Assembly: GCF_014844095.1 (NCBI RefSeq)
Contig: NZ_CP062163.1
Location: 3,071,501 to 3,135,500, forward strand
Reading direction: 5' to 3'
Length of the DNA: 64,000 nucleotides
Source of the DNA: Brevibacillus sp. JNUCC-41
GTDB taxonomy: Bacteria > Bacillota > Bacilli > Bacillales > DSM-1321
Below the pieces are notes generated by a model. That model made no database searches, had not been told where the DNA came from, and saw nothing but the letters and a program-made list of their open reading frames with translations. Position numbers and translations under genes: made by a program. Within the stretch, counting starts at the first letter, position 1; each line of letters starts with the position of its first letter. Below are positions 6,348 to 20,161 of the stretch, one piece after another.

Positions 6348-7580
6348 ATGAAAACATTACAGCCAGTTGAAGAAATCAAACAAATTCAAAAAGGAAACAT
6401 TTTAATGCCCCAAGGGTTCAAAGCGGCAGGTGTACATGCAGGATTACGCTATTCCAAAAAGGACGTTGGCATCATTTTTACCGATGTCCCAGCATCAGCC
6501 GCGGCGGTTTATACACAAAATGTTGTTCAAGCCGCTCCAATCAATGTAACGAAAGACAGCATAGCCGTTAATGGAAGGCTTCACGGTATTGTAGTGAATA
6601 GTGCTTGTGCGAATGCTTGTACAGGTGAACAGGGGTTAAAAGATGCAAATGAAATGAGGAAGCTTGCGGCTCAAAAGTTCGGTTTGAAGGACCATTCATT
6701 TGCAGTGGCTTCAACGGGAGTCATAGGGGAATTCATGGAAATGGAAAAAGTAAAAAAAGGCATAGAGTCATTGCAGCCAGAAAATACACCTGAAGCTGCT
6801 GAAGCTTTTGGTACAGCCATTTTAACAACGGATATTGTAACGAAGAGCTGTGGCTATGAAACGATTATTGACGGAAAAACCGTGAAAATGGGCGGTGCTG
6901 CGAAGGGGTCGGGAATGATTCATCCAAACATGGCCACAATGCTTGGTTTCATTACGACGGATGCTGTAATTGAACCGGATGATCTACAGCAAGCACTTTC
7001 CTCCATTACAAATGATACATTCAATCAAATCACGGTTGATGGTGATTGTTCAACGAACGACATGGTGTTAGTGCTCGCGAATGGAGAAGCAAACAATGAA
7101 CCTTTGACACCTGACCATCCTGAATGGTCCATTTTCTTGGAATTATTAAAACAAACTTCCGAAAATCTCGCCAAACAAATTGCGAAAGACGGAGAAGGTG
7201 CCACAAAACTGATAGAAGTGAATGTTCATGGCATGCCTGCGAAGCAAGATTCACAGATGTTGGCGAAGACGATCGTTGGGTCAAATCTAGTGAAAACGGC
7301 AGCTTTTGGAGCGGATGCAAACTGGGGACGAATCATCGCTGCAATGGGTAGAAGCGGAGTGGAATTCAATCCGGATCAAACAACGATCGTTTTTGGCGAT
7401 ATCGTCGTACTTAATGATGGTGAGCCGGTAATGTTTTCTGAGGAAGAAGCCAAAGTATACTTGGAAAATGAAAGTATCATCATTAATGTTTATTTGAAAG
7501 ATGGTAATGAATCAGGAACGGCTTGGGGCTGCGATTTAACCTATGATTATGTGAAAATAAACGGGAGCTATCGTTCGTAA
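6348..7580 (+). CDS. argJ: Bifunctional ornithine acetyltransferase / N-acetylglutamate synthase
   Basis: A 410-residue ArgJ. It recycles acetyl from N-acetylornithine to glutamate and usually also makes N-acetylglutamate from acetyl-CoA. The precursor self-cleaves between Ala196 and the nucleophile Thr197 in NMATMLGF, giving alpha and beta chains. KGSGMIHPN precedes the cut and DANWGRI follows in the beta chain. The start is ATG 6348 with TTGGAGGA upstream; a longer frame from 6306 overlaps the end of argC. Since no argA or argE is seen, this cyclic route is the likely one. Confidence 0.97.
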   Translation: MKTLQPVEEIKQIQKGNILMPQGFKAAGVHAGLRYSKKDVGIIFTDVPASAAAVYTQNVVQAAPINVTKDSIAVNGRLHGIVVNSACANACTGEQGLKDANEMRKLAAQKFGLKDHSFAVASTGVIGEFMEMEKVKKGIESLQPENTPEAAEAFGTAILTTDIVTKSCGYETIIDGKTVKMGGAAKGSGMIHPNMATMLGFITTDAVIEPDDLQQALSSITNDTFNQITVDGDCSTNDMVLVLANGEANNEPLTPDHPEWSIFLELLKQTSENLAKQIAKDGEGATKLIEVNVHGMPAKQDSQMLAKTIVGSNLVKTAAFGADANWGRIIAAMGRSGVEFNPDQTTIVFGDIVVLNDGEPVMFSEEEAKVYLENESIIINVYLKDGNESGTAWGCDLTYDYVKINGSYRS

Positions 7581-7592
7581 GAGGTGAAAAGT

Positions 7593-8366
7593 ATGGACAT
7601 ATTAGTTATAAAGTGCGGCGGAAGCATCATTAATGAGTTATCGGAGTCTTTTTTCAATAGTGTTAAAGAGTTACAAAACTGCGGGTACCATATTGTCTTT
7701 GTGCATGGAGGCGGCCCTGATATAAATTCAATGCTTGAAAAATTTGAAATTGAACCAGTATTTGAAGATGGTTTAAGAAAAACGACCACAGAAGTGCTGG
7801 AAATTGTGGAACTTATGCTGGCAGGCAAATCGAACCGCAGCCTTGTTCATAAATTGGAATCCCATGGCATCAAGGCAATCGGTTTAAATGGCTCTGACGG
7901 TGGAATTCTTACAGGTGATTATATCAATGAACAGAAACTTGGAGCTGTTGGTGAGATACAACAAGTCAATACGGAATTATTCGGACTATTATTCGAAAAA
8001 GGTTATTGTCCGGTATTGACGCCCATTTCAACAACCGAAGAAGGCACTATATTAAATGTGAATGCCGATATGGCTGCAGGGTCTGTAGCAAAGGCATTAT
8101 CGGCTGATATGTGTTTATTTGTGACCGATGTTAAAGGGGTCTTGAAAAATGGGCAGATCATTGACAGATTGAATGAAACAGAAACGAATAATTTAATAAA
8201 TGATGGTAGCATCCATGGGGGAATGATCCCGAAAGTCACTACAGCGCTGTCGGTGCTGAATAAAGGGATTGAAGAAGTGATGATCGTTAGTGGGAAAGAT
8301 CATTTTTATCAAGACGGACAATTCATCGGTACGAAATTTCTTCAGGAAGAAGGGGTATTTCAATGA
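7593..8366 (+). CDS. argB: N-acetylglutamate kinase
   Basis: A 257-residue amino-acid kinase that phosphorylates N-acetylglutamate. The lysine/glycine motif VIKCGGSI is at the N-terminus, FVHGGGPDIN binds substrate, and ILNVNADMAAG with VTDVKGV lies in the nucleotide half. The start is ATG 7593; GTG 7584 is part of the SD (AGAGGTG). Its stop overlaps the argD start (ATGA), so translation is probably coupled. The short N-terminus lacks the helix that arginine-inhibited forms carry, so feedback inhibition is uncertain. Confidence 0.96.
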   Translation: MDILVIKCGGSIINELSESFFNSVKELQNCGYHIVFVHGGGPDINSMLEKFEIEPVFEDGLRKTTTEVLEIVELMLAGKSNRSLVHKLESHGIKAIGLNGSDGGILTGDYINEQKLGAVGEIQQVNTELFGLLFEKGYCPVLTPISTTEEGTILNVNADMAAGSVAKALSADMCLFVTDVKGVLKNGQIIDRLNETETNNLINDGSIHGGMIPKVTTALSVLNKGIEEVMIVSGKDHFYQDGQFIGTKFLQEEGVFQ

Positions 8367-15116: not shown

Positions 15117-15869
15117 TCAGGAATAACCGAATATTTTCGAGATTTCCAAACAGCTCTTTCTTAAATAATCGCTTAAGGGATCTTCATGATGATCTGGAAT
15201 GCTTTCGGTGAACCCGACGGCAGTGATCGCTCCCAACAATTCTGAATTATAATTAAAAACCGGAATGGACATGGAGGAAACAGAAGGTACAAGAGGCTCT
15301 TTGGCAAAAGCTATTTTGTATTTCCGAATTTCATGATATTCATCCGTTTCTTTAAGGAACGAGCCTGTAACATTACGATCTTTTTCAATCCATTCGGCTG
15401 TCAAGGAAGGATCCTGAAAAACAGTGAATACCTTTCCGGATGAGGATGAAGGGGGAAGACGCGTACCTAACTGTGCCCCGATGTTTAAGTTTTGGTTTGA
15501 ATTCCAAATTTTCGCCGTGATTGGTCCATCGTATGTCCAAACGGAAAAAAGGACTGTGCAAGAAGTATGGTGACTGATTTCCTGTAAGTAAGGAGTTATT
15601 CTGCTCGTGACATCCTCATTTCCTATTGCTGCCATGCCGTATTGAATCAGTTTGCTCCCAAGGTGATACATACCGGTTGTCTTATCGCGATATAGCAACT
15701 CAAGCTGAGTCAAAGTATTCAAATACTTATAGAGGTTACTTTTCGTTATTTCCGTTAATTCTTGAATATCAGAGAATCTTAAAGGAGTCCTTTGGGAAGC
15801 AAGTAAATCTATGATGCTCATCCCTATTTGTAATGATTGAATCGTCGAACCGGATTTTACGATTTCCAT
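15117..15869 (-). CDS. IclR-family transcriptional regulator of the aromatic cluster
   Basis: A 250-residue IclR regulator. The N-terminal winged HTH covers about residues 8-70 (LQIGMSIIDLLASQ, LTEITKSNLYKYLNTL). The C-terminal effector domain ends with a conserved small-ligand region (SSMSIPVFNYNSELLGAI). SD GGGAGA precedes ATG 15869. It is divergent from the gentisate-pathway operon, the usual layout for an IclR regulator controlling its neighbours, so a ring-cleavage intermediate or the starting acid is the likely ligand. Whether it activates or represses cannot be told; a palindrome over the operon's -10 (16094-16111) suggests repression. Confidence 0.88.
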   Translation of the reverse strand: MEIVKSGSTIQSLQIGMSIIDLLASQRTPLRFSDIQELTEITKSNLYKYLNTLTQLELLYRDKTTGMYHLGSKLIQYGMAAIGNEDVTSRITPYLQEISHHTSCTVLFSVWTYDGPITAKIWNSNQNLNIGAQLGTRLPPSSSSGKVFTVFQDPSLTAEWIEKDRNVTGSFLKETDEYHEIRKYKIAFAKEPLVPSVSSMSIPVFNYNSELLGAITAVGFTESIPDHHEDPLSDYLRKSCLEISKIFGYS

Positions 15870-16068: not shown

Positions 16069-16111
16069 TTGACAATATTCCGAAAATTAAGTTACTATTT
16101 ATATAAATAGT
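16069..16111 (+). promoter_or_regulatory. Gentisate operon promoter with 18-bp palindromic operator
   Basis: TTGACA (16069-16074), an 18-nt spacer and TACTAT (16093-16098). A perfect 18-bp palindrome, ACTATTTATATAAATAGT, spans 16094-16111 over the -10 and the likely start site, a good place for repressor binding. The 5' leader is then about 140 nt long. Confidence 0.72.
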
Positions 16112-16252: not shown

Positions 16253-17200
16253 ATGAAACTAGTAACTTTCAGCAGTCAAGGATTTAAACGTATTGGTGCA
16301 ATTTACCCGAATAATGTAATAGTTGACTTGAACTATGCCTATCAAGCGCTACTTGAAAGCGAAGGGAAACTTCGCAGTGAACAAATCGCTGAAGCGTATG
16401 TCCCAGCAACAATGGAGGCGTTTTTACAGGGAGGGAATGAAAGCCTTTCCATCGCGAAAAAGGCTGCGGACTACGCTATTAACAATCGTGATTCCTTCAG
16501 ACATAAATTGGTGCATGAAATTGAAAATATCAAGCTTGAGGCACCTGTCCAAAAGCCAGGCAAAATTATTTGTGTAGGACATAACTACCGTGAGCACATT
16601 GCTGAAATGGGTCGTGAACTGCCGCCATTCCCTGTGGTATTCGCAAAGTTCGCCAATACAGTAATCGGTCCCCAGGATGATATACCGTTTTTCCCAATCT
16701 CAGAACAACTAGATTATGAAGCGGAATTCGCTTTTGTAGTCGGACAAAGAGCACGTAATGTATCCAAAGAGGATGCTCTTGATTATGTGGCTGGTTATAC
16801 AATTGCGAATGATGTAACGTACCGTGATATCCAACGGCGTACACTTGAGTGGCTTCAAGGGAAAACGGTTGAAGGAAGTGCTCCGATGGGGCCTTGGTTA
16901 GTCACTTCCGATGAACTATCCGATCCATCTGGCTTAAATGTCCGATTAACGGTAAATGGTGAAGAACGCCAAAAAACGAATACAGCCAACTTCGTATTCG
17001 ATGTGAAGTATTTAGTTGAATTTTTATCGAATTTAATGACTCTTGAACCAGGTGACATCGTACTCACAGGAACACCTGGTGGGGTAGGAGTAGCCCGTGA
17101 CCCACAAGTATTCTTAAAAGATGGTGACGTTGTCAAAATCGAAATCGACAAAATAGGTTATCTTGAAAACCGTGTGCAACGTGTCGGGGAGGGAAAATAA
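16253..17200 (+). CDS. FAH-family hydrolase, probable fumarylpyruvate hydrolase
   Basis: A 315-residue fumarylacetoacetate-hydrolase-family enzyme. The metal-binding core is recognisable: GHNYREHI, EAEFAFVVGQRAR, the ANDVTYRD region, and LEPGDIVLTGTPGGVG. In gentisate pathways this family splits fumarylpyruvate (or maleylpyruvate directly) into fumarate (maleate) and pyruvate. It is the first gene of the operon, SD AAGGAGAATG before ATG 16253, with 1 bp between its stop and the next gene. The N-terminal 95 residues are an extra domain seen in long FAH proteins. The exact substrate is inferred from the neighbouring gentisate dioxygenase. Confidence 0.85.
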   Translation: MKLVTFSSQGFKRIGAIYPNNVIVDLNYAYQALLESEGKLRSEQIAEAYVPATMEAFLQGGNESLSIAKKAADYAINNRDSFRHKLVHEIENIKLEAPVQKPGKIICVGHNYREHIAEMGRELPPFPVVFAKFANTVIGPQDDIPFFPISEQLDYEAEFAFVVGQRARNVSKEDALDYVAGYTIANDVTYRDIQRRTLEWLQGKTVEGSAPMGPWLVTSDELSDPSGLNVRLTVNGEERQKTNTANFVFDVKYLVEFLSNLMTLEPGDIVLTGTPGGVGVARDPQVFLKDGDVVKIEIDKIGYLENRVQRVGEGK

Positions 17201-17201
17201 A

Positions 17202-17693
17202 ATGGCTTATCAGGAAATCGGGACATCAATCCAATCGGTTCAACAATCAATCGACCACATTCTTGAAACAGTGACAAACCTACCGGAAGAAACGATCAGA
17301 TTTAAGCCGACAGATGATGAATGGTCAATCATGCAGATACTTTCCCATTTAGCTGAGGCCATTCCATATTGGTTAGGTGAAGTGGAAACAGTAATAGCGA
17401 TGCCTGGAGCCAAATGGGGGCGTGGATTGCAAGATCCAGCCCGATTGGCAGCAGTTACCGATACTGACAAAATCGCTGTTGATGATGTCATGAAGCAAGT
17501 GGAGGAGCTTAAATATAAAGTGGAGAGCAGTCTCGGAAATCTTGATGAAGAAACACTATCCAAAGAATCGCCACACCGGAATTTCGCTAAATTCGGAAAC
17601 AAACCAGTTTCTTATATTGTCGATCACTTCATCGATGAGCATGTTTCAGGACACTATGATCAAATTAAGCGAAATCTTTCTAAAATCCAGTGA
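17202..17693 (+). CDS. DinB-superfamily protein, candidate thiol-dependent maleylpyruvate isomerase
   Basis: A 163-residue four-helix DinB-like protein. The metal triad typical of the fold can be picked out: His49 (ILSHLAEAIPYW), His147 and His151 (DEHVSGHYDQI). Known members include the mycothiol-dependent maleylpyruvate isomerase and bacillithiol transferases (BstA/YfiT). Bacilli make bacillithiol. Sitting between the FAH hydrolase and gentisate dioxygenase, it is well placed to turn maleylpyruvate into fumarylpyruvate using bacillithiol. No zeta-class GST isomerase is present. The start is ATG 17202, SD GGGGAGGG within the FAH gene end. Family assignment is firm; the reaction is inference. 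Confidence 0.78.
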   Translation: MAYQEIGTSIQSVQQSIDHILETVTNLPEETIRFKPTDDEWSIMQILSHLAEAIPYWLGEVETVIAMPGAKWGRGLQDPARLAAVTDTDKIAVDDVMKQVEELKYKVESSLGNLDEETLSKESPHRNFAKFGNKPVSYIVDHFIDEHVSGHYDQIKRNLSKIQ

Positions 17694-17723: not shown

Positions 17724-18836
17724 ATGGCTGGAAAATCGGAATACATGGACAGTTCAATCGTAAAAGATTTTACAAAGGATATTCAGCAGTATAACCTTGG
17801 GCCACTGTGGGAAGCCATTCCCGCTTTGATGGACCATGAACCTAAACCTCATGCACATGCTTATTTATGGAAAGAAGAGCTTTTGACAAAAAAATTGATG
17901 GAAGCGGCTGAAATCTTCACACCTGACCGGGGAGGGGAGCGCAGGGCCATTTATTTTCAAAACCCTGGCCTCACTTATCGCCAGCCTTGGGGATGGGCTT
18001 CGACGACACAAACGCTTTATGCAGCAGTTCAGCTATTATTGCCAGGTGAAGTGGCCCCTTCTCACCGTCACTCCCAAAGTGCACTTCGTTTCATTACGAA
18101 TGGTGAAGGTGCCTACTCCATCGTGCAAGGAGAAAGGATATTCATGGAAGAAGGAGATTTCTTGATCACGCCTAAAAACCTATGGCATGGTCATGGACAT
18201 GTTGGCGAAAAACCAATGATTTGGATGGATGCCCTTGATATCCCGACCATCTATTCCATAGGTGGCACTTTCTTTGAACCATATCCAGATCGGATTGAAA
18301 CGCCTAAACGTCCGGATAATTTTTCAGAGCTCCGTTATCAAGGCGGAATGGTTCGTCCAGTATCCGACCGTTATTCACAAGTGGCACCGCTTGCCAATTA
18401 CAAATGGAATGGCACAAAAGCAGCGATAGAAGGATTAATGAATTTCGAGCCGGACCCATATGAAGGTTTTGCCGTGGAATATATCAATCCATCAAATGGC
18501 CAAACGGCCAATCCGACGATGGGGGCATGGATGCAGAAACTTCCTAAAGGTTTCCATACGAAAGCACATCGCCATACCCATTCCACAATTTATCAAGTGC
18601 ACCAAGGATCAGGCTATACAGTTATTAATGGAGTGCGTTTTGACTGGTCCAAGGGAGATTATTTCGTCGTTCCGAATTGGGCATGGCATGAGCACGTTGC
18701 AGAAGCTGATTCTTACTTATTCTCGGTAAACGACCTACCAATAATGGAGAGATTCGATTTGGAACAGCAACAGTCATTAGACACAAACAATGGTTACCAA
18801 AAGATTGAAAGTGAATTCAAGCCTGTTTTGGTTTAA
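17724..18836 (+). CDS. Gentisate 1,2-dioxygenase
   Basis: A 370-residue bicupin ring-cleavage enzyme that opens gentisate between C1 and C2 to maleylpyruvate, using Fe(II). The N-terminal cupin has SHRHSQSALRFI with the two iron-binding histidines and WHGHGHV further on. The C-terminal cupin has KAHRHTHSTIYQVHQG and WAWHEH. The length is typical of the family, whose bacterial members run from about 340 to 380 residues. SD AGAAGGG precedes ATG 17724. Third gene of the operon. Confidence 0.93.
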   Translation: MAGKSEYMDSSIVKDFTKDIQQYNLGPLWEAIPALMDHEPKPHAHAYLWKEELLTKKLMEAAEIFTPDRGGERRAIYFQNPGLTYRQPWGWASTTQTLYAAVQLLLPGEVAPSHRHSQSALRFITNGEGAYSIVQGERIFMEEGDFLITPKNLWHGHGHVGEKPMIWMDALDIPTIYSIGGTFFEPYPDRIETPKRPDNFSELRYQGGMVRPVSDRYSQVAPLANYKWNGTKAAIEGLMNFEPDPYEGFAVEYINPSNGQTANPTMGAWMQKLPKGFHTKAHRHTHSTIYQVHQGSGYTVINGVRFDWSKGDYFVVPNWAWHEHVAEADSYLFSVNDLPIMERFDLEQQQSLDTNNGYQKIESEFKPVLV

Positions 18837-18961: not shown

Positions 18962-20161
18962 ATGAGCAAAGAAAAAAAACCATTCATAGTTATCGGTGGG
19001 GGAATTGGCGGTTTGGCAACTGCTTTAGGAATTGCAGAAACTGAACAGTATGTAAAGGTCCTTGAACAAGCTCCTGAATTTGGGGAAATTGGTGCAGGGA
19101 TTCAGCTTGCAGCAAATGCCACCAATGTATTGCAGCGTTTAGGCGTTATGGATAAAATCAATGAAATTGCAGTATTTCCAAAAAGGTTGGTGCTGATGGA
19201 TGCCTTTTCCGGCAAGGAGCTTTCCGCTTTGGATTTAGGTGATGTTTATAAAGAAAGATATGGAGCGCCGTATGTTGTCTTGCATCGTTCCGATTTGCAT
19301 AAAGTACTGGCTGAAGCCTGTGAAAATAACCCGTATATTGAACTGGTTACGAACCAAACCATTATTGAAACAGTAGAAAATGAAGGTGAAGTTACTGTTA
19401 CTGCTGCTAACGGGTCTAAACATTCAGGAACTGCTGTCATTGGAGCCGATGGATTATGGTCCAAGGCACGAAAACTTTTTGTGGAAGATCAACCGATCTG
19501 CTCTCAATATGTTGCATACAGGGGAGCGATTCCGATGGAAGAGGTTACGAGCCATGGAGATTTAGATGATGTATATATGTGGATTGGGCCAAACCTTCAT
19601 CTTGTTCAATACCCAGTTAGAAGGGGGGAACTTTACAACCAAGTAGTGGTGTTCAAAAGTTCTCAATACACGGAAGAAAATGAAAAAACTGATCAATGGG
19701 GAACCCCGGAAGAAATGGACAGTGTATTTGCCGGAACATGTGAGCTTGTTCAGAATGCGATTTCATTCATTCAAAGGCAACGCCGCTGGCCGATGTATGA
19801 CCGGTTACCAATTGATAATTGGACTAAAGGAAGGGTTACGCTTACGGGCGATGCGGCACATCCAATGCTTCAATACTTGGCTCAAGGGGCTTGCCAGGCT
19901 TTAGAAGATGCAGCTTATTTGTCGGATATGCTTCATAAGCATGGAAATGACATTGAACAGGCATTTTTGGAATATCAAGAGGAACGCATTCCGCGTACAG
20001 CTAATGTTCAAACGAGTGCAAGAATGTGGGGGGAAATCATCCACAATACGACCGATGCAGGTATTCTGCTCAGGGATACGATCCTTGCAGGTCGCACGGA
20101 TAAAGATTTCCAATTCGTCGATGAATTTCATGGTTATAATAAAACGGCCGTAAAAGCATAA
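18962..20161 (+). CDS. FAD-dependent monooxygenase, probable 3-hydroxybenzoate 6-hydroxylase
   Basis: A 399-residue single-component flavin hydroxylase. It has the Rossmann motif VIGGGIGGLATALGI, the DG motif VIGADGLWSKAR and the GD motif VTLTGDAAHPMLQYLAQGA. It resembles 3-hydroxybenzoate 6-hydroxylase and salicylate-hydroxylase-type enzymes. With gentisate dioxygenase next door, para-hydroxylation of 3-hydroxybenzoate to gentisate is the most likely role. Two in-frame ATGs (18959, 18962) follow the SD AGGGGGAA; I prefer 18962 for spacing. It is the last gene of the catabolic operon. No transporter gene accompanies the cluster. Confidence 0.85.
   Translation: MSKEKKPFIVIGGGIGGLATALGIAETEQYVKVLEQAPEFGEIGAGIQLAANATNVLQRLGVMDKINEIAVFPKRLVLMDAFSGKELSALDLGDVYKERYGAPYVVLHRSDLHKVLAEACENNPYIELVTNQTIIETVENEGEVTVTAANGSKHSGTAVIGADGLWSKARKLFVEDQPICSQYVAYRGAIPMEEVTSHGDLDDVYMWIGPNLHLVQYPVRRGELYNQVVVFKSSQYTEENEKTDQWGTPEEMDSVFAGTCELVQNAISFIQRQRRWPMYDRLPIDNWTKGRVTLTGDAAHPMLQYLAQGACQALEDAAYLSDMLHKHGNDIEQAFLEYQEERIPRTANVQTSARMWGEIIHNTTDAGILLRDTILAGRTDKDFQFVDEFHGYNKTAVKA

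Follow-up and report, generated by a model that had tools for sequence, protein, structure and literature searches.

Which enzyme carries out the cis-trans isomerization of maleylpyruvate in a Gram-positive gentisate pathway without glutathione and mycothiol is the question raised by a small gene in the window (the whole stretch of 64,000 nucleotides that was analysed), where a DinB-fold protein is encoded within a gentisate gene cluster. The original prediction was that this protein may isomerize maleylpyruvate with bacillithiol. We consider it probable that it is a single-domain maleylpyruvate cis-trans isomerase of the YfiT/BstA type, dependent on a metal and on a low-molecular-weight thiol, with bacillithiol as that thiol and the activity itself inferred. 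Taken separately, the isomerase activity, inferred from context, gene fusion and the type of the partner hydrolase, is very likely, and bacillithiol as the thiol, also an inference, is likely if the protein is indeed an isomerase.

Gene content of the locus

The gene is an intact open reading frame encoding a DinB-fold protein of 163 aa, and the stretch immediately upstream of it reads GGGGAGGG. The features of the locus are as follows.

15117-15869, minus strand: divergent IclR-family regulator, PcaR/PcaU/PobR-like (PF09339 and PF01614; TIGR02431, 4e-19)
16069-16098, plus strand: sigma-70-like promoter match ahead of the operon, TTGACA-18-TACTAT (from a consensus scan; no better than chance in this region)
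16253-17200, plus strand: FAH-family hydrolase, predicted fumarylpyruvate hydrolase, FPH type (PF01557, 1.3e-74; 204 bits to 6J57 versus 122 to 6JVV)
17202-17693, plus strand: DinB/S-transferase-like protein, predicted thiol-dependent maleylpyruvate isomerase (Pfam, gene order, conservation, fold model)
17346-17348, plus strand: His49, predicted metal ligand (invariance, alignment with 2RD9)
17640-17654, plus strand: His147 to His151, predicted metal ligands (invariance, alignment with 2RD9)
17724-18836, plus strand: gentisate 1,2-dioxygenase-like bicupin, GDO (TIGR02272, 6e-94; best solved relative 3BU7)
18962-20161, plus strand: 3-hydroxybenzoate 6-monooxygenase-like FAD enzyme (NF006021, 422 bits, below the cut-off of 459)

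The position of the gene between an FAH hydrolase gene and a gentisate dioxygenase gene, as originally described, is borne out by the PF01557 and TIGR02272 matches, with a gap of 1 bp between the FAH stop and the DinB start and of 30 bases between the DinB end and the GDO start. The GDO scored 315 bits against TIGR02272, under the curated equivalog cut-off of 442 bits, and its best solved relative is a gentisate 1,2-dioxygenase (3BU7, 256 bits). Since both the GDO and the FAD enzyme fall under their curated equivalog cut-offs, a substituted gentisate is also conceivable as the substrate. Scans of the region for promoters and terminators gave nothing above chance; the divergent placing of the IclR regulator is kept in many homologous loci. 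The host (genome size 5.49 Mb) had been taken for a Bacillus, which we correct: the genome is Peribacillus-like (Bacillaceae) and not Bacillus in the strict sense.

Fold and family placement

The DinB protein matched three Pfam families, each above its cut-off (DinB_2, 1.6e-9; MST, 4.5e-7; DinB, 1.2e-6). The codons of the predicted triad lie at 17346-17348 (His49), 17640-17642 (His147) and 17652-17654 (His151), and the three histidines were unchanged in 40/40 relatives in an alignment reaching down to 35% identity; together with the Pfam matches this upholds the earlier description of a DinB-fold protein with these three residues. They also align with histidines of the YfiT-like protein 2RD9, His49 with one and His147/His151 with two. 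Further residues invariant in the 40 relatives are E40, W41, S42, I43, Q45, E52, W57, W72-G73-R74, R81, N127, F131, K134, P135, Q154, R157 and N158.

A single-sequence phmmer search of the protein against the PDB gave no match, so that an alignment profile was needed. An AlphaFold2 model (pLDDT 94.5, pTM 0.89) had its closest structural matches in YfiT (1RXQ, Z 18.1) and 2RD9 (Z 18.0). Further fold neighbours included a mycothiol transferase of M. tuberculosis (8F5V, Z 14.8), the mycothiol-dependent maleylpyruvate isomerase (MDMPI; 2NSF, Z 13.3) and BstA of S. aureus (5WK0, Z 11.1). Fold by itself proves little, as middling Z scores are common among helical bundles. With its DinB-type four-helix fold and three-His site, the window protein is a member of the DinB/S-transferase-like (STL) superfamily.

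Within this superfamily, MDMPI can be compared with the window protein. The MDMPI gene is grouped with those for GDO and fumarylpyruvate hydrolase, and mycothiol is an actinobacterial thiol. The C. glutamicum enzyme (NCgl2918; 2NSF/2NSG) shares with the window protein a DinB-like N-terminal fold (Z 13.3 over 151 residues) and the reaction predicted here, but it is a protein of 240 aa with an extra C-terminal domain, compared with a single domain of 163 aa, and the two are only ~10% identical. The criterion of two domains and about 240 aa is thus not met, with only residues 5-155 of the 240 in 2NSF being covered. Nor is that of the triad: the 2NSF paper reportedly gives the MDMPI metal site as His52-Glu144-His148, whereas His-His-His is invariant in the 40 relatives of the window protein. 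MDMPI_N (PF11716) did not match the window protein at E 0.1, and 7/40 relatives matched it weakly (best 9e-4).

YfiT/BstA proteins (1RXQ, 5WK0; BstA-H of B. subtilis) resemble the window protein in their single-domain fold, His-His-His metal site and bacillithiol-making host, but identity is <20%, and the WGR/R81/N127/K134 set distinguishes the window subgroup. The YfiT equivalog NF009807 was not met (22.7 bits versus a cut-off of 160). For the known members of this group, conjugation is established with model electrophiles, and no natural substrate is known. The zeta-GST maleylpyruvate/maleylacetoacetate isomerases (NagL/MaiA, TIGR01262) share the reaction predicted here, the step from the GDO product to the substrate of fumarylpyruvate hydrolase, but have an unrelated fold and use a different thiol, glutathione; the DinB fold of the window protein does not meet the criterion for this GST-type family. 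The protein therefore lies outside the MDMPI and GST families, in STL/DinB, close to the Bst transferases and beyond the YfiT equivalog.

Co-occurrence with gentisate dioxygenase and conserved gene order

Relatives were sought in 84,980 genomes with peptide patterns blind to neighbouring genes, which recovered 47 loci. The order FAH-DinB-GDO was found in all 47, with FAH to DinB spacing mostly of 10 nt or less, or with the two genes overlapping. At the family level (43 genomes), DinB was present in 23 genomes, exactly those with GDO. Across 397 genomes drawn evenly from the order, DinB occurred in 31 and GDO in 34, and every one of the 31 DinB genomes also had GDO (Fisher 4e-43, uncorrected for kinship); counted by genus, the figures were 21/135 for DinB and 22/135 for GDO. 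Three genomes with GDO and without DinB (G169, G311 and G402) were considered as counterexamples and rejected, as their GDO and FAH sit in other clades; their intact FAHs are of the maleylpyruvate hydrolase (MPH) type, and G402 has two clusters, one with a short FAH frame. A phylum-wide GDO search beyond the order added one genome (G746), with two GDO loci, neither adjoined by DinB.

The GDO tree groups the DinB-associated genes in a single clade (SH-aLRT 97), which includes six unlinked copies, and places the DinB-free types outside it. GDO genes of this clade without an adjacent DinB were found in G032, G058, G214, G239, G389 and, as a second copy, G288; in every one of these genomes a DinB gene lies at another place. 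In G058, G214 and G239 the FAH-DinB pair is intact and GDO is separate. FAH and DinB also form a single open frame in two lineages (471 aa in G248 and 481 aa in G164), in which both halves retain their motifs. Both the pairs kept apart from GDO and the fusions indicate that, functionally, the DinB protein is most closely tied to the hydrolase.

Several individual loci deserve separate mention. G032 retains FAH-DinB-GDO in one locus (L176) beside a second window-type cluster (L177) in which DinB was lost between GDO and FAH, ~250 bp remaining at 7398-7650 with no long frame. In Terrilactibacillus sp. S3-3 (L104, 5030-8767), FAH, DinB and the FAD enzyme are each split over several frames, reflecting decay or sequencing errors. 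A record titled Arthrobacter beigongshangensis REN13 (NZ_JADHDX010000004.1) contains an AT-rich, Bacillus-type gentisate cluster, 75-81% identical to the window, with a GDO that groups with Lysinibacillus; this record is probably mislabelled or contaminated.

Two kinds of FAH partner and no other recognisable isomerase

Direct cleavage of maleylpyruvate by the FAH enzyme would have refuted the original prediction, and this was addressed through the type of the FAH partner, by similarity only. The window FAH scored 204 bits to 6J57, the solved C. glutamicum fumarylpyruvate hydrolase, compared with 122 bits to 6JVV, the solved Sphingobium maleylpyruvate hydrolase; it is also similar to YisK and HpcE. 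In BLAST comparisons all FAHs adjoining DinB scored 122-150 bits to 6JVV, while 13 full-length FAHs from DinB-free GDO clusters scored 218-262 bits, the two ranges being without overlap (86 entries, not all independent owing to overlapping locus sets). Three FAHs of DinB-free clusters tested against the PDB had 6JVV as best match (242-255 bits). The window genome has ten FAH genes, and the eight best, which were compared, reached at most 149 bits to 6JVV. From these similarities we infer that the window FAH is of the FPH rather than the MPH type.

Other GDO clusters within the order have an isomerase-free gentisate route, with an HbzF-type maleylpyruvate hydrolase (6JVV). Unlike the window cluster, these have no DinB, and neither their FAH nor their GDO belongs to the clade associated with DinB. 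GDO clusters of this kind, 40-52% identical to the window GDO (37-53% when G746, of another class, is included), never occurred with DinB, and their FAHs presumably need no isomerase. Read most simply, an isomerase is superfluous where a cluster encodes a direct maleylpyruvate hydrolase, and clusters with a fumarylpyruvate hydrolase carry DinB to make its substrate.

Second GDO clusters with MPH-type FAH occur in Bacillales (L171, L179, L180 and similar). That of L179 also includes a CoA ligase, an acyl-CoA-dehydrogenase-like protein and a small thioesterase, with genes of like size in L171 and L180; these clusters possibly encode a CoA-dependent route to gentisate or a relative.

A GST-type isomerase (TIGR01262) was absent from all 36 GDO-bearing Bacillota genomes searched, the window genome included. 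PF11716, the mycothiol-type N domain, gave only weak matches in GDO genomes, in frames of 104-276 aa (mostly 160-190), i.e., ordinary DinB paralogues; there was no sign of a two-domain mycothiol-type isomerase, although the C-terminal domain was not searched separately. The predicted isomerization thus draws support from co-occurrence and gene order with GDO and FAH, the fusions, the FPH-type FAH and the lack of another recognisable isomerase, with the activity remaining an inference.

Proposed reaction, the thiol and alternative explanations

In the proposed pathway, the FAD enzyme would convert 3-hydroxybenzoate to gentisate, GDO would open gentisate to maleylpyruvate, the window DinB protein would isomerize this to fumarylpyruvate, and FAH would split fumarylpyruvate into fumarate and pyruvate. 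A divalent metal held by His49/His147/His151 (metal binding is inferred) may activate the bacillithiol thiolate for reversible addition to the maleylpyruvate C=C bond; rotation of the adduct about the now single bond and expulsion of the thiol could then leave the trans isomer. The conserved R74, R81, N127 and K134 may hold the carboxylates, a suggestion made without distances to the metal.

For the predicted use of bacillithiol, the part that stands is the plausibility given by the fold, nearest to YfiT/BstA, and by the published behaviour of this fold family; nothing shows which thiol, if any, is used. BshC was present in 35/35 GDO genomes. We rejected this co-occurrence as evidence for bacillithiol, because BshC is in 386/397 genomes of the order anyway and is uninformative. 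Of the 11 genomes without a BshC match, nine belong to one genus (g18, family f15), which would offer a natural control for the absence of bacillithiol. This uninformative pattern, and the absence of evidence for bacillithiol-binding residues, leave room for a maleylpyruvate isomerase working with cysteine, CoA or another thiol, or with metal only and no thiol. We regard this as possible but unlikely, since all eight B. subtilis STL proteins (including YfiT = BstA) are metal-dependent and active with bacillithiol but inactive with cysteine and CoA (PMC5815605), and the known DinB-fold isomerase for the maleylpyruvate step, that of C. glutamicum, uses mycothiol as cofactor (PMC4360819).

The protein could alternatively be a bacillithiol S-transferase that detoxifies by-products of gentisate breakdown (excess maleylpyruvate or carboxy-benzoquinone), with FAH splitting maleylpyruvate directly. 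Its nearest solved fold, YfiT/BstA, is indeed that of a transferase. However, the partner FAH is of the fumarylpyruvate hydrolase type (by similarity only), MPH-type GDO clusters lack DinB although a detoxifier should be wanted in both, and fusion to FAH and strict gene order better suit a pathway step, making this explanation improbable. A non-catalytic accessory or assembly partner of FAH would fit the tightness of the FAH-DinB pair, fused in two lineages and together when GDO is elsewhere, but is very improbable, given that the invariant triad with E40, W41, E52, W72, G73, R74, R81, N127 and K134 resembles an active site.

Significance for bacillithiol and gentisate catabolism

The preferred reading, bacillithiol-dependent isomerization of maleylpyruvate, had been put forward as a variant not known to be described, and we found no report of such an enzyme in the open-access literature (subscription papers were not covered). 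We lean towards the broader conclusion that Bacillales independently recruited a single-domain protein of the bacillithiol-transferase type, which forms a third class among the thiol-dependent maleylpyruvate isomerases. This would be the first catabolic step known to need bacillithiol and would provide the first physiological substrate of a Bst-type protein, with a fused bifunctional isomerase-hydrolase in some species. If true, the DinB fold was used convergently for the same reaction as in MDMPI with a different thiol.

The above analyses tie one bacillithiol-transferase-type protein to a defined pathway and, by inference, to a defined substrate. Deletion of all eight STL genes in B. subtilis caused no growth phenotype (PMC5815605). 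With the DinB protein tied to a defined pathway, testing growth on a single carbon source could reveal a first clear catabolic phenotype for bacillithiol. The type of FAH allows genomes to be annotated for the isomerase route or the direct-hydrolysis route. If the proposed activity is true, it would close the isomerase gap in gentisate breakdown by Gram-positive bacteria having neither glutathione nor mycothiol, and, if bacillithiol is the thiol used, this would be its first known role in a nutrient pathway.
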